Source: Bacillota bacterium
GTDB lineage: Bacteria; Bacillota; Clostridia; Saccharofermentanales; Fastidiosipilaceae
Length of the DNA: 49,740 nt
Assembly: GCA_030057555.1 (NCBI GenBank)
Contig: JASGUU010000051.1
Span: forward strand, 1 to 49,740
Direction: 5' to 3'
Below are positions 22,487 to 46,074 of this stretch, one piece after another. Position 1 is the stretch's first letter. The number at the start of each line of letters is the position of its first letter. Under the pieces are notes generated by a model that saw only the letters and a list, made by a program, of their open reading frames with translations, had not been told where the DNA came from and did not search any database. The position numbers were made by a program, and so were the translations under genes.

Positions 22487-22824
22487 GTACAGCCGCGTTT
22501 GGGCGATCTGCAAGCGCAGGGCGGTATTGCGCCGGCTGCGCGGGATCCATGGGTCTGCCGGCGGGAGTCAGAGTGTGCATAATTTACGCTTAACTCGGAT
22601 TGTTGAGCAGTTTCAGCAACTGAGATGCGTATAAATTCACTTTTGCGAATAAAATCGCCGAAATATGCATGCTGGCGCATTTTTATGCAGCGGTATTGCG
22701 CCCGGCGTAACTTTTGCACATGCGGAATGACGTATCGACTTTCGTGTCATATCTACCTCTTCGTTTTTGGCCGGCTTGCGCTACACTAGTGCCAGTCAAA
22801 AATGTGAAGGGAGGATCTCGGGAT

Positions 22825-23490
22825 ATGGGACGACGTGATATCAGCCGCCAGTGCTGTTACTGCGCGAGCCCCATGCAGGAGCATGACAGCTTCTGTCCGG
22901 AATGCGGACGGCTGCAGACTGTTATTCCGCTTTCGCAGACTGTTGATGCGGCCGGGCCGGAGCCGGAAGCCGATAGTCCGATCCGCCCTGCCCCGCCGCT
23001 ACAGACACCGGTAGAGCCCGATCCGCAGTGGTTTGTGGATCTCTCGAACGCTCCTCTCGCGCCGCTGGACTATAAATTTCCGGAGCCTCCGGATGAGGAT
23101 CCGACGCTCGCGGATCCGCTGGCCGAAACGAAACGTTTTGAGGTGCCGAAGCCGGAGCAGGCCGCCGCGCCGGCTCCGCCGGAAGAACTGCCGCATCTGG
23201 CCTATCCCGGCCGTCTCTATGCGAACGCTGCGCCGGAGGGCGGCGCCGCGGCCCGCGCTGTGCCGGCGGCGGAGAGGGAGCTGCCCGGGGATGTCCCGGA
23301 ACCCTGGCGGCAGACGAAGCTCATCGTCGGCCTCGCGCTCGCCCTGCTCAGTCTGGTCCTGCTCGTGCTGGCAGGCATCATGATCTACCGTGCCATGGTG
23401 AAGTTTCCGGCGCCGGCGGCAGCGGCGCCCGGCCGACAGCAGCTGCTGCGGGTAACGGAGAGCATGCCGCAGCGGGGTATTTCATCATGA
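22825..23490 (+). CDS. Zinc-ribbon single-TM protein (cassette 1, first gene)
   Basis: A 221-residue protein. ATG 22825 is set by AGGGAGG ten bases upstream. Residues 10-27 form a zinc ribbon (Cys10-x2-Cys13 and Cys24-x2-Cys27, CPECGR). A long Pro/Glu-rich linker follows (about 35-150), then one TM at about 173-196 (LIVGLALALLSLVLLVLAGIM) and a short tail. The ribbon should face the cytoplasm. The next gene overlaps by ATGA and encodes a four-TM protein. The same two-gene arrangement recurs at 41830-43228. Function unknown; ribbon-tethered membrane proteins of this kind are common and uncharacterised in Clostridia. Confidence 0.82.
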   Translation: MGRRDISRQCCYCASPMQEHDSFCPECGRLQTVIPLSQTVDAAGPEPEADSPIRPAPPLQTPVEPDPQWFVDLSNAPLAPLDYKFPEPPDEDPTLADPLAETKRFEVPKPEQAAAPAPPEELPHLAYPGRLYANAAPEGGAAARAVPAAERELPGDVPEPWRQTKLIVGLALALLSLVLLVLAGIMIYRAMVKFPAPAAAAPGRQQLLRVTESMPQRGISS

Positions 23491-24431
23491 GGGCGCAGAC
23501 GGAGATGTCGCCGGTGTTTCGCGAGGTCCGTCGCCGGCCGCAGGAGGAAACGAATGCCGGCCTCACGGCACTCAGCGTTCTGCTCGCCATCGTTCTCACC
23601 GGCCTGCTGGTGCTGGTCGGCCAGGTCGCTGCGATCCGCAGTGGCCTCGCCACGGAGAGGATCGCTGAGACGGTGCTGGGGACGGATCCGGGCCGCCTGA
23701 CCTTTACCGACCGCAGCGGCGTGAGCGGGACGGTCTACCAGCTGGGCTTTGCCTATCTGCCGCCCATCGTCCGGGAAGAAACCGGCCTGACGGAGGCCCA
23801 TATGCCTGCGGTGTTCGAGCAGGCGGGAACCCTGCGCAGCATCGCGGTGCTGGCGGGCCGCTCGGCGGACTGGCTGCTCGACGGCGAGGGAGAGCGCCAC
23901 GTTTACGAGAGCGAAGTGCGCAGTCTCTTCGACAATCTTACGGCTGCGATCGAGACGGTTTCGGGCACCCGGCTCTCGGAGGAGGCCCGGCAGCAGATGG
24001 ATGCCTGGTACCGCGCCCAGAAGACGGGCGATCTCGATCTGCAGGACGTGCTGCACGCCGTCCCGCTCCTGCAGACGCTGCGGCCCTGGTTGTCGCCCGA
24101 GTTCCTGCTGGCCGCGGTGCTGCTCGTTCTCGTCGTTGCGATCTGGCTTGTTCTGCTGGCGGGCGGCCGCTTCTCGCGCTGGCCGCTGTATGCGGGGCTC
24201 GGGGCGGTCTTTGCAGGCGTGATATCACTCAGCCTGGCCTTTATTGTTCCCGCTCTGATCGGGCGCCTGCTGCGTTTTGAGAGCGAGATGGCCGCGTTGC
24301 GAACGGTAAGTGAAAAGATTCTGGGCGGACTGCGTTCGGCCCAGCTGCGCTATGCCCTGCTGATCGGGGGGCTCGGGGTGCTGCTGATTCTGGTGCAGGC
24401 CGTGGCCGCCCGGCTGCGCCGCCCGCGCTAG
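23487..24431 (+). CDS. Four-TM protein with large extracytoplasmic domain (cassette 1, second gene)
   Basis: A 314-residue membrane protein. TM1 lies at about 27-48, then an outside domain of roughly 150 residues, then TM2-TM4 in the C-terminal 110 residues. The ATG at 23487 overlaps the zinc-ribbon gene's stop. It is homologous to the protein at 42257-43228. Shared residues include YQL, PP-V--ETGL-EAHMP-VF-QA-T in the outside domain, F-NLT-AIET, L-EEAR-QM and LSPE before TM2. Family not recognised. The paired conservation implies the two proteins of each cassette form a complex. The C-terminus overlaps the opposite-strand isomerase gene by 4 bases. Confidence 0.82.
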   Translation: MRAQTEMSPVFREVRRRPQEETNAGLTALSVLLAIVLTGLLVLVGQVAAIRSGLATERIAETVLGTDPGRLTFTDRSGVSGTVYQLGFAYLPPIVREETGLTEAHMPAVFEQAGTLRSIAVLAGRSADWLLDGEGERHVYESEVRSLFDNLTAAIETVSGTRLSEEARQQMDAWYRAQKTGDLDLQDVLHAVPLLQTLRPWLSPEFLLAAVLLVLVVAIWLVLLAGGRFSRWPLYAGLGAVFAGVISLSLAFIVPALIGRLLRFESEMAALRTVSEKILGGLRSAQLRYALLIGGLGVLLILVQAVAARLRRPR

Positions 24432-40442: not shown

Positions 40443-41159
40443 ATGACGCGTTTTCATAAGGAGATCGTGACCTGTCCCTTCTGCGCCTCGGATGAGGAGG
40501 TTGTGATCTGGGATGTGCTGGATGTCTCAGCGGATCCGGATCTCAAGGAACGCCTGCTGACCAAGCGCTGCCAGGTGCTCGAATGCCAGAACTGCGGCGA
40601 GGAGAGCATTCTGGCCCGGCCGCTGGTCTATGTGGACCCGGAAGCCCGGCTGCTGCTGGTGTGGCGGCCGGAGCTCGCGGAGTTTGAGGAGACCGAGCCG
40701 GATACGCCGCTTGACGGGCGGCCCGAGAGTCTCCTGAACCTGCCTGCGGGACTCGACGCGGCGCTGCTGCCACAGCTGGATGGGCTGGCGCCGGCGGAGG
40801 GTGACGCGGCGTGCTGGCGGCTGCGTCTGCTGTCGGGCTACAATGCCCTGCTTGAGAAGATCCACGCGTTTGGGGCCGGGCTCGACGACCGGATTCTGGA
40901 GATTGTGAAGCTGGCGCTGACGGCCCGCTATGCGGATGAGGAGGACCTCTTTTTCGAGGCCATGCATCTGCTCGCGGCCCGTGGCGGCCTGATGCTGCTG
41001 CAGGTTCTGGAGCGCGAGCGCGGCTGGCAGACACTCGAGATCAGCATGGAACTCTATGACAACGCCTATGATCTGCTGATCGAGCGCATGCCGGCGGAGG
41101 GGCAGTGGCAGCGGATTGACGGGCGCTTCGCACGGCGTTTTGTGACGGCCGCCGGCTGA
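40443..41159 (+). CDS. CpXC domain protein
   Basis: A 238-residue protein starting directly on the base after the preceding stop, so coupled to it. The N-terminus has CPFC (Cys11, Cys14) and ECQNCG (Cys48, Cys51), a zinc ribbon with the spacing of CpXC (PF14353) proteins. The C-terminal half is helical (LLEKIHAFGAGLDDRILEIVKLALTARYA) and contains ALLPQLDG. CpXC proteins are common in Bacillota and have no known function. It lies upstream of other zinc-ribbon genes on the same strand. Confidence 0.8.
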   Translation: MTRFHKEIVTCPFCASDEEVVIWDVLDVSADPDLKERLLTKRCQVLECQNCGEESILARPLVYVDPEARLLLVWRPELAEFEETEPDTPLDGRPESLLNLPAGLDAALLPQLDGLAPAEGDAACWRLRLLSGYNALLEKIHAFGAGLDDRILEIVKLALTARYADEEDLFFEAMHLLAARGGLMLLQVLERERGWQTLEISMELYDNAYDLLIERMPAEGQWQRIDGRFARRFVTAAG

Positions 41160-41251
41160 GGTGCAGCCGAGCTGAGCCGGGTGCCCTGTGCTGTGGCAAA
41201 CAGGAGACAGATGCTGCCTGACGCATTTCACGCACACCGGGAGGAGAGAAC

Positions 41252-41752
41252 ATGAGCGAACAGAGATGGACGCTGCGCTATGAGCGCCTGCCGGAGACGG
41301 TGGAGGACTTCAAGCGGCTGCTGGCCGGGCGCCGGAGAGCGCCCGAGGAGATTGCCGGCCTCTTCATCGTGGCGATGTGCCGCTACCCCGCGGATCCGGA
41401 GGCAGCGCTGGAGATGGTGAACCTCCTGCGTGGGCCGCGGCCGCTGTCGCATTACGAGCGGCAGTTCTATCGTGACCGCATGGGGCACGATTATGTGCCG
41501 CGCTCGTTTTTTGTCGGTGCCACACCGGCCAACAACTACACGCCGGACGAGCCTCCGACGCTGATCGTTGAGGCCAACCGGGTCAGCTACGATCAGGAGG
41601 GGATGGCGCGGCTGCTCATGAAGAGCGGCGGCGCCGACAGCGCCCGCCCGATCGTACTGCGGCTGAAACCCTCGACCGGTGAATGGTTCCTCTGGGAGGA
41701 GGTCCTGCTCGGCGGTATCCGTCCGCCCGTGGCCGCCGATCCCTGGGCCTGA
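41252..41752 (+). CDS. Conserved hypothetical protein (DUF6935-like)
   Basis: A 166-residue soluble protein with an excellent GGGAGGAG ribosome site. Conserved-looking blocks are YERLPETVEDFKRL, LFIVAMCRYPADPEAALEMVNLLRGPRPLSHYERQFYRDRM, YVPRSFFVGATPANNYTP, and RPIVLRLKPSTGEWFLWEEVLLGGIRPP-ADPWA. This pattern matches the uncharacterised family I know as DUF6935 (name from memory). No signal peptide and no catalytic motif are visible. It sits between CpXC and the zinc-ribbon cassette, and such proteins often occur together in Bacillota. Confidence 0.72.
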   Translation: MSEQRWTLRYERLPETVEDFKRLLAGRRRAPEEIAGLFIVAMCRYPADPEAALEMVNLLRGPRPLSHYERQFYRDRMGHDYVPRSFFVGATPANNYTPDEPPTLIVEANRVSYDQEGMARLLMKSGGADSARPIVLRLKPSTGEWFLWEEVLLGGIRPPVAADPWA

Positions 41753-41829: not shown

Positions 41830-42237
41830 ATGGAGCAAACAAACAGAACCTGCCGTGTCTGCGGCGCCCAGGCACTCCCCAACTCGGATTTCTGTCCGGT
41901 CTGCGGGCGGGAGCTCGCCCGGCCCCGGCCCGCACCGCCTGTCCAACAGCCGCCGCCGCACAAGGCGGCTCTGCCCACGGGTTCTTATACCGATTTTACG
42001 GCGGCCGAAGAGCGGCTGTCCGCCTCCGCCCGCCATGACCGCATTCGTTTCTATGTCAACCTCGGTCTCGGCCTCCTGAGCATCGTGCTCGTCATCACGA
42101 TTGCCCTGCTGTTCGCCCGCGCCGCCACCAAATTTGACGCTGAGCGCATCACCCGCCTGCCGCCCGAAGCCCAGGGTACGGCCGTCGTCGACCCCGTGAT
42201 CGAGACACTGCCGCCCGCCGCCGAACCGGCCGCGTAA
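41830..42237 (+). CDS. Zinc-ribbon single-TM protein (cassette 2, first gene)
   Basis: A 135-residue protein; ATG 41830 follows GGGAGGAG. The zinc ribbon is Cys8-x2-Cys11 and Cys22-x2-Cys25 (CPVCGREL), then a Pro-rich linker, then a TM at about 77-99 (LGLGLLSIVLVITIALLFARA) and a short external tail. It is the counterpart of the protein at 22825 with a much shorter linker. The four-TM partner gene begins 19 bases downstream. The upstream open frame before Met50 lacks a ribosome site and is not used. Function unknown. Confidence 0.82.
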   Translation: MEQTNRTCRVCGAQALPNSDFCPVCGRELARPRPAPPVQQPPPHKAALPTGSYTDFTAAEERLSASARHDRIRFYVNLGLGLLSIVLVITIALLFARAATKFDAERITRLPPEAQGTAVVDPVIETLPPAAEPAA

Positions 42238-42256
42238 GCACGCGAGGAGCCCAGCC

Positions 42257-43228
42257 ATGCGAGACAGCGCACCCTCATCCTCCGCGATCTACCGCGATGT
42301 GGCCCGCCGCGAGCACTGGCGTCACGGCCCAGGGCACAGCAGCGTTCCGGCCATTGTCCTGAGCCTTATACTCACTGCTGCCTTTGTCCTGTGTCTGGTA
42401 GCGGCCGGCCAGGCCGGCGTTCTCCGCCGTGCCCTCAACCCCGACCGCATCGAAGCGCTTGTCGCCGATCTCAAACCTGAACATTTCACCCTGGTCACGG
42501 CCGAAGGCGAGGAGCTCAACCTCTACCAGCTTGTCTACCGCAACATGCCGCCGCTGGTCCACACCGAGACGGGCCTCGCCGAAGCCCACATGCCGCTCGT
42601 CTTTACCCAGGCCCGCACCGTCGAGACGGCTGCCGCGATCGCGGGAGATGTCGTCCGCTTCCTGCGGGATGGAGACGGGCAAAGCGTGGTACCGGCCTCC
42701 GCCTTCCAGCGCATCTTCGACGATCTCACGATTGCCATTGAGACACTTACCGCGACACCTCTCTCCAGCGAGGCCCGCGGCCAGATGCAGGAGTGGTTCC
42801 AAGAGCAGGAGCTGCAGGATATTGATCTCGTCTATGTCGTCCGTGACATTCCCGGCCTCGGCACGCTGCGCAGTCTGCTCAGTCCGGAAGCCCTCACGGC
42901 GCTGATCCTCTCCGCCCTCGTCTGCCTGATCTGGATCAGCCTCCTGCACCGCGGCTATCTGGCACGCTGGGTCATCTATCCCGGCGTGGGGGCCATTCTC
43001 GCCGGCCTGCTCTCGCTGTTTTTCTCCCTGCTGCTGCGTCCCCTTCTGAATCGCGCCGTCGCGGGCGATGCCGGCGACCCGGCTGTCCAGATTCTCCTCG
43101 CCGCCTTTGAGAGCGGTGTCCAGCGCTGGCAGGCCATCTACGCCTTCTTCCTCGCCGCCTGCGGTTTCGCCCTGCTGCTCACCGGAGTGCTGCTGCGGGC
43201 CCGCCTCGAACGCAGCCGCCCGCGCTGA
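42257..43228 (+). CDS. Four-TM protein with large extracytoplasmic domain (cassette 2, second gene)
   Basis: A 323-residue paralogue of the protein at 23487-24431. TM1 is about 30-50 (VPAIVLSLILTAAFVLCLVAAG), followed by about 155 outside residues and three TMs. Matching blocks include LYQLVYRNMPPLVHTETGL and EAHMPLVFTQARTV, FDDLTIAIETL and LSSEARGQMQEW, and LSPEALTAL. CAGCC-ATG 42257 is preceded by GAGGAG. The copies differ in most other residues, so the duplication is old. It likely forms a complex with the zinc-ribbon protein before it. Family not recognised. Confidence 0.82.
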   Translation: MRDSAPSSSAIYRDVARREHWRHGPGHSSVPAIVLSLILTAAFVLCLVAAGQAGVLRRALNPDRIEALVADLKPEHFTLVTAEGEELNLYQLVYRNMPPLVHTETGLAEAHMPLVFTQARTVETAAAIAGDVVRFLRDGDGQSVVPASAFQRIFDDLTIAIETLTATPLSSEARGQMQEWFQEQELQDIDLVYVVRDIPGLGTLRSLLSPEALTALILSALVCLIWISLLHRGYLARWVIYPGVGAILAGLLSLFFSLLLRPLLNRAVAGDAGDPAVQILLAAFESGVQRWQAIYAFFLAACGFALLLTGVLLRARLERSRPR

Positions 43229-45264: not shown

Positions 45265-46074
45265 ATGAAAATCAGCTGCATCTTCGGACATAAATGGAGC
45301 GGCTGCATCTGCGAACGCTGCGGCACGGTACGCGATGGCGAACAGTTGCATAGCTTTGTACATTTCGATCATAGCTGCGCGACAAAATGTGAGCGTTGTG
45401 GCAGAGAGGGACCTGTCCAGCACACATGGAACAGGAATGGAAAGGGCTGTACATGTGAAATATGTGGAGCAAAACGAGAGGTAAGCAATCTGAACGCACA
45501 CTCCATTCCCTATATTTATGATCCGCATTATCTTGGTGGCAGCGAGAGAATAAGCTGCACATGTACCGATTGCGGTTATGTAAGACCGGGGGATTTCGAG
45601 GGTCATATATACGAGTACACGTATGTGGAGGGGTCGGCAGAGCATAAGGGTGTTTGCATCGTTTGTGGCAGAGAGATCATGTCCGAGCATTTTTACGAAG
45701 ATGGCGTCTGCAAATACTGCGGCTATAAGCCCGGTGTCGATCTGCAAAAACTGGTACGCGACTTCGCCACCTACACCTCACTGAGCCTGGACGAATCTGC
45801 CCTGGACGAGATGGAGCGACAGCTTCTGGATGTAGGCGACCCTGCGGAGGCGGTCATCTTCAATTTTCTCTGGAACTGCTCCATGGGCAGTATGGACGGC
45901 ATTCGCTGGTGGAGTCAGGCCAGACGCTTGACGCGCATGCTGCCGAAGTTCCGTTCGCCAGAGCTCAAACAGCAGCTGACTCTGCTTGTGGACAACGCGA
46001 CGCGAAATAATAGTTGGGAGTACCATACGGAAATTGCCAATGTAGCGAAAGAAGAGTTAAGCAAAATCCTTTGA
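45265..46074 (+). CDS. Multi-zinc-ribbon protein
   Basis: A 269-residue protein with an AAGGAGG ribosome site. The N-terminal half has at least four CxxC-bearing units: HKWSGCICERCG, NGKGCTCEICGAK, ISCTCTDCGYV with CIVCGRE, and GVCKYCGYK, several preceded by H-x-W or H-x-Y (each start resembles HxWxxGCxCxxCG). The C-terminal 110 residues are helical (LDESALDEMERQLLDVGDPAEAV, ELKQQLTLLVDNATRNNSWEYH), without Cys-rich units. Its codon use is more AT-rich than that of its neighbours, suggesting recent acquisition. I do not recognise the C-terminal domain. Role unknown, possibly nucleic-acid or protein binding. Confidence 0.78.
   Translation: MKISCIFGHKWSGCICERCGTVRDGEQLHSFVHFDHSCATKCERCGREGPVQHTWNRNGKGCTCEICGAKREVSNLNAHSIPYIYDPHYLGGSERISCTCTDCGYVRPGDFEGHIYEYTYVEGSAEHKGVCIVCGREIMSEHFYEDGVCKYCGYKPGVDLQKLVRDFATYTSLSLDESALDEMERQLLDVGDPAEAVIFNFLWNCSMGSMDGIRWWSQARRLTRMLPKFRSPELKQQLTLLVDNATRNNSWEYHTEIANVAKEELSKIL

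Follow-up and report, generated by a model that had tools for sequence, protein, structure and literature searches.

The window analysed here, a stretch of 49,740 nucleotides on contig JASGUU010000051.1 of a Bacillota bacterium, carries two paralogous two-gene membrane cassettes, at 22825-24431 and 41830-43228, in each of which a gene for a zinc-ribbon protein with a single transmembrane helix (ZR1, ZR2) is followed by a gene for a protein with four transmembrane helices (4TM1, 4TM2). Comparison with other Clostridia indicates that this pair is the split form of an architecture that is fused into one polypeptide in other families of the class, which supports the idea that ribbon and four-TM protein are functionally linked, and suggests as much for the two proteins of the window. 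That the paired cassette occurs twice had been proposed in an earlier note made from the letters alone, and the ORF list places both copies exactly where that note had put them. 4TM1 and 4TM2 are the sole copies of the four-TM gene in the genome (2.9 Mb draft).

The first cassette consists of ZR1 (22825-23490, + strand, 221 aa), supported as an ORF and by the alignment with a sister species, and 4TM1 (23487-24431, + strand, 314 aa), the stop of the former and the start of the latter sharing 4 bp (ATGA). It stands alone, with oppositely oriented genes on both sides. The second consists of ZR2 (41830-42237, + strand, 135 aa) and 4TM2 (42257-43228, + strand, 323 aa), a paralogue of 4TM1, separated by a gap of 19 bp, and it is preceded by CpXC and DUF6935 genes. 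A Shine-Dalgarno-like stretch is present for each cassette, that of ZR1 being GGAGG at 22810-22814. Judged by their ORFs, the genes around the cassettes encode ABC transporters, an isomerase, CpXC, DUF6935 and an oxidoreductase; identities were assigned by profile for CpXC and DUF6935 only, the rest coming from ORF reading. These two genes, at 40443-41752, immediately precede cassette 2 and share its strand, with matches of 91 bits (CpXC, PF14353) and 160 bits (DUF6935, PF22043). No signalling-type operon partner was found beside either cassette. Elsewhere in the window, 45265-46074 encodes a protein of 269 aa in which Cys pairs recur and the N-terminal half is CxxC-rich, and which has no Pfam match at E 0.1.

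The two ribbon proteins share a layout of zinc ribbon, linker, one TM helix and tail. In ZR1, the ribbon (22852-22908, + strand) has the form CxxC-x10-CxxC at residues 10-27, with Cys10-x2-Cys13 and Cys24-x2-Cys27, and is followed by a linker of ~130 residues of Pro/Ala/acidic composition; the TM helix, located by hydrophobicity and by the model, spans 23320-23388 (+ strand, limits approximate) and resembles that of ZR2. The ribbon of ZR2 (41851-41907, + strand; Cys8-x2-Cys11 and Cys22-x2-Cys25) passes the Pfam Zn_Ribbon_1 profile (PF13240) with 25.7 bits against a cut-off of 25, whereas that of ZR1 falls below the Pfam cut-offs. Its linker is short, and its TM helix, located from the sequence, lies at 42049-42117 (+ strand, limits approximate). 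After the TM, about 30-40 residues only remain in ZR1 and ZR2. The single-chain model of ZR1 has a pLDDT of 59, its sole confident helix, at residues 159-193, being the TM. For the orientation of this single TM, the positive-inside rule applied to the sequence is indecisive.

The four-TM protein begins with a basic N-terminus and TM1, continues with ~150 residues outside and ends with TM2-TM4, the TM2-TM3 loop and the C-terminus both being basic. This distribution is consistent with a topology in which both termini lie inside and a helical domain is displayed outside; the basic N-terminus and the inside position of the TM2-TM3 loop agree with the earlier placement of the ~150-residue domain outside. 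The AlphaFold2 model of 4TM1, computed from four sequences, has a mean pLDDT of 76 and a pTM of 0.59. In this model, the outside domain between TM1 and TM2 (23646-24092, + strand, approximately residues 54-202) is nearly all helical, with a core pLDDT around 90, and the same region is matched in register by the class-wide family described below; the corresponding domain of 4TM2 was located by alignment with 4TM1 at 42434-42880 (+ strand). No His or Cys is conserved in the four-TM protein and no Asp or Glu is kept throughout the wider family. The DGEGE/DDGG turn was also considered as an EF-hand, but this idea was dropped because its acidic positions are not kept in the alignment.

Over their entire length, 4TM1 and 4TM2 share 38% identity, and both contain the ETGL-EAHMP-VF-QA block that had already been pointed out. 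The earlier view that the ribbon parts differ mainly in linker length needs correction, since ZR1 and ZR2 show an overall identity of only about 30% and thus differ in sequence as well. Their TM segments are nevertheless related: none of 3000 segment-wise shuffles reaches the score of the pair, whereas an unpaired zinc-ribbon TM protein of the same genome, used as a control, gave 4% and 29% in the shuffle test. This control is the single-TM zinc-ribbon protein at L100:1498-1902 (G000:C10), after which no four-TM gene was seen. On account of the identity of the four-TM pair and the relatedness of the ribbon TM segments, the sequences indicate that the cassette was duplicated as one unit and not by chance.

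Both cassettes are present with unchanged gene order in a sister species (Bacillota bacterium MAG87_KBP, JASGUW01, our G009), in which cassette 1 likewise has the 4-bp overlap. The flanks visible there also match, with a divergent ABC gene at cassette 1, a DUF6935-like gene before cassette 2 and an oxidoreductase after it. The cysteines of the ribbon are invariant in the four ribbon proteins of the two species, and both sister-species paralogues have Q in place of the H of EAHMP. In the codon comparison between the species, dS was 0.61-0.69 and dN 0.13-0.25 across the four genes, with dN/dS values of about 0.21 and 0.23 in the four-TM genes; the ribbon genes had 0.33-0.36 (ZR1 about 0.36). Given these values, all four cassette genes are real and under purifying selection. 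The sister species also encodes a double zinc-ribbon protein between two dynamin-like GTPase genes (G009:C116, L126).

The absence of a characterised family for the pair, anticipated in the earlier note, was borne out by searches of Pfam, NCBIfam and PADLOC: the four-TM protein has no family in Pfam or NCBIfam, and none of the four window proteins matches the anti-phage defence profiles of PADLOC. Sequence search of BFVD and PDB gave nothing convincing. Window-type queries against 12 genomes of the family, 188 of the order, 391 of the class and 398 of the phylum yielded only weak matches beyond the sister species; those examined were unrelated (NusB, chemotaxis receptors, FliH and long RND-sized frames), and a match on a viral contig (L007) lay outside any matching ORF. 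The other ribbon proteins of the genomes of the window's family-level group (f1) have unrelated architectures.

More distant relatives were reached by searching the class with a probe, a 90-residue consensus of a clostridial four-TM domain, which served for retrieval only, the evidence of homology resting on the retrieved sequences and not on the probe. It gave three strong matches and one weaker match, all of them four-TM proteins with the layout of the window family. When the window family was compared by hhalign with the class-wide family, window members excluded (8 sequences), the two aligned with a P of 5.2e-10 and 214 columns in register; a smaller class-wide set (4 sequences) gave a P of 1.9e-11. 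As controls, eight unrelated or Lit multi-TM profiles gave a best P of 1.2e-3 and 48 unrelated single TM ORFs a best P of 2.7e-4, one more ORF on the latter list (L144) being itself a borderline relative. BLAST of single pairs between the window family and the class homologues was not significant, so the homology between the window's four-TM family and the class-wide one, as indicated by the profile alignments, is a remote one. In a survey with an enlarged profile across 391 class genomes, several of them drafts, relatives were counted in at least six family-level groups including the window's own; two borderline relatives (G289 and G236) were left out of the counts.

In three of these groups, ribbon and four-TM domain are encoded in a single ORF, namely in G368 (f67, L133:1096-2157), G243 (f27, L130:57-1676, - strand) and G537 (f21, L167:1174-2334), the protein of G243 carrying two ribbons. 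The order of the fused proteins, ribbon, linker, TM1, outside domain and TM2-4, is from N- to C-terminus that of the genes in the window, where the ribbon resides on a separate one-TM protein, as it does in the genus of the window (f1). The pairing, held to be meaningful from the start, gains weight from these single polypeptides. The split would not be a simple fission, because ZR has a TM of its own that cannot be recognised as a copy of TM1; a derivation of the ZR TM from TM1 was tested and not supported. In G537 and G454 (L167, L147), a gene for a one-TM protein lies before the four-TM gene and a von Willebrand A-like gene after it, with a second Cys-rich gene intervening in G537. This conserved arrangement may be a clue to function.

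The explanation that competes best with a functional link, although we consider it unlikely, is that the pairing is fortuitous: the ribbon gene came to lie upstream by chance, the cassette then underwent a single duplication and was inherited, and the two proteins do not interact. All four window-type pairs do indeed go back to one duplication and one speciation. Furthermore, the f53 group (nine species) keeps the four-TM protein with a long charged N-terminal tail in place of a fused ribbon, and G454 (f21) is without a ribbon although its congener G537 has one. Among the 14 homologues counted outside the genus, three are fused, one has an adjacent ribbon gene, nine are without a ribbon and one, from G282 (f44), has a broken N-terminus, the gene being cut at its start beside a transposase-like gene. 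The single adjacent case is G396, itself of f53, with a separate zinc ribbon-TM gene 18 bp upstream that has a weak NTF2-type (DUF3828) match. It had been foreseen that homologues mostly devoid of a ribbon would speak against the pair; by raw count this is what was found (9/14), but eight of the nine ribbon-less homologues come from the one family f53, and by family most have the ribbon, the link being seen in f1, f27, f67 and f21. Against coincidence stand the fusions in the same order in three other family-level groups, together with the small number of ribbon matches that pass the PF13240 cut-off, only about seven in the 2.9 Mb genome, which makes chance adjacency rare.

A further question is raised by the fold of the four-TM protein. 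In a Foldseek search of its model against the PDB, the first and second matches were the two chains of Lit of B. cereus (7b0p; chain A with prob 0.92 and E 0.21, chain B with prob 0.90 and E 0.35), and no other listed match exceeded a prob of 0.10. VIA-align superposed 184-196 of about 220 Lit residues with a Z of 8.8-9.2, and the topology of Lit is identical, with the N-terminus in and an outside domain after TM1 (PMC8275575). Both proteins have four TMs, N- and C-termini inside and an outside domain between TM1 and TM2, but that of the window family is larger than Lit's. However, the E-values of the Foldseek matches (0.21-0.35) are not significant, helical bundles often reach a Z of 8-13 and ABC exporters score an equal Z here. 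Nor did hhalign find a relationship in sequence, with a P of 0.029 over 33 columns against eight true Lit proteins, the family of the genome's own Lit (0.035 in a second alignment), and of 0.13 between the class-wide family and Lit, and the four members searched had no match to PF07314 at E up to 10. The four-TM protein may share a distant common fold with Lit. Membership of the Lit family was rejected, there being neither a profile match nor a catalytic His. As for a match to a known enzyme or transporter, which would also have told against the earlier reading, none was obtained by sequence, and what emerged was this weak likeness in fold, with the catalytic residues absent.

Two readings involve such a likeness. 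The four-TM protein could belong to an unnamed family of envelope receptors with a Lit-like fold and lost catalysis, acting as the outside sensor of a signalling arm formed by the zinc ribbon, in fused and split forms, which appears rather improbable. Marginally less probable still, it could be a divergent Lit-type transacylase or acyl-chain enzyme, with an extracytoplasmic cap over four helices, of which the ribbon protein would be only a regulator. The similarities of fold and topology would suit such an enzyme, but the catalytic His85 and His153 of Lit and its conserved Phe157/Trp162 (B. cereus numbering; PMC8275575) have no counterpart: no His is conserved in either the window family or the wider one, and none at all occurs in the fused protein of G368. 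The genome, moreover, already has a standard Lit (G000:C44). This ordinary Lit (PF07314) is encoded at L065:1384-2106, and most order genomes searched had none above cut-off. That the four-TM protein conserves neither His nor Cys tells against a Lit-like enzyme and favours a function as a receptor or structural component. The same lack of metal-coordinating residues, with no Asp or Glu kept in the wider family, only four helices and no transporter family match, makes it very unlikely that the four-TM protein acts as a subunit of a channel or transporter gated by a metal-responsive ribbon protein, for instance in zinc homeostasis, even if a cytoplasmic zinc site does adjoin a polytopic membrane protein and two distant members have weak Pfam matches, below cut-off, to transport families.

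We tentatively propose, at a likelihood that we put just short of even, that the cassette is a two-chain membrane sensor or anchor in the manner of YdjG, with a ribbon arm and an outside domain. The proposal is made because the closest working style is that of ZnR-TM proteins, above all YdjG. In known zinc-ribbon TM proteins, a ribbon in the cytoplasm is connected with a domain outside (PMC3924330). In B. subtilis, YdjG and YdjH interact and together keep a PSP complex at the membrane, the recruitment of YdjI and PspA depending on both (PMC8581546; PMC11237479; PMC9239133). By analogy, the zinc-ribbon protein would be a membrane-tethered cytoplasmic docking arm and the four-TM protein would display the all-helical domain on the outer face, so that two chains would do what one fused chain does in other families of the class. 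On the outer side of the membrane, the outside domain or the bundle may sense or hold a candidate ligand such as a lipid, a lipoprotein or a precursor of the wall, while the cytoplasmic ribbon may bind a protein or, less likely, nucleic acid; the whole module would be an envelope sensor or anchor comparable to YdjG. The genes with their pairing, the duplication, the selection, the homology and the fused relatives are what the sequences show; the orientation of the ribbon, the physical complex, the ligand, the partner and the sensing or anchoring role are here what we infer.

The analogy with YdjG has its limits. Like ZR1 and ZR2, YdjG combines zinc ribbons and a TM in one protein; it also acts with a second membrane protein, as ZR1 and ZR2 may do, and anchors a cytoplasmic complex (PMC8581546, PMC11237479). 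YdjG has an NTF2-like domain, whereas ZR1 and ZR2 have short tails only and no such Pfam match; the partner is different too, having here four TMs and a helical domain outside, and the neighbours read from the ORFs at both cassettes do not form the YdjG-type operon (pspA, ydjH, ydjI). The fused class proteins are comparable in their homologous four-TM part and outside helical domain and in their ribbon on the N-terminal, cytoplasmic side, but they are one polypeptide with four TMs where the window has two with five. PspC with an N-terminal ZnR similarly links a ribbon to a membrane protein, with an unrelated membrane domain, and the ribbon-TM-NTF2-like sensors (DUF3828/DUF3887/DUF4878) connect ribbon, TM and outside part in the same way, with unrelated outside domains (PMC11237479, PMC3924330).

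A membrane family that had not been covered thereby gains a hypothesis, as the fused and split forms predict a contact between the ribbon and the four-TM protein. If the two-chain sensor or anchor proves true, the few zinc-ribbon membrane proteins of Gram-positive-type bacteria that couple the state of the envelope to the cytoplasm would be joined by one with a new outside domain, and the family might be related to the lipoprotein enzyme Lit while lacking its catalysis.
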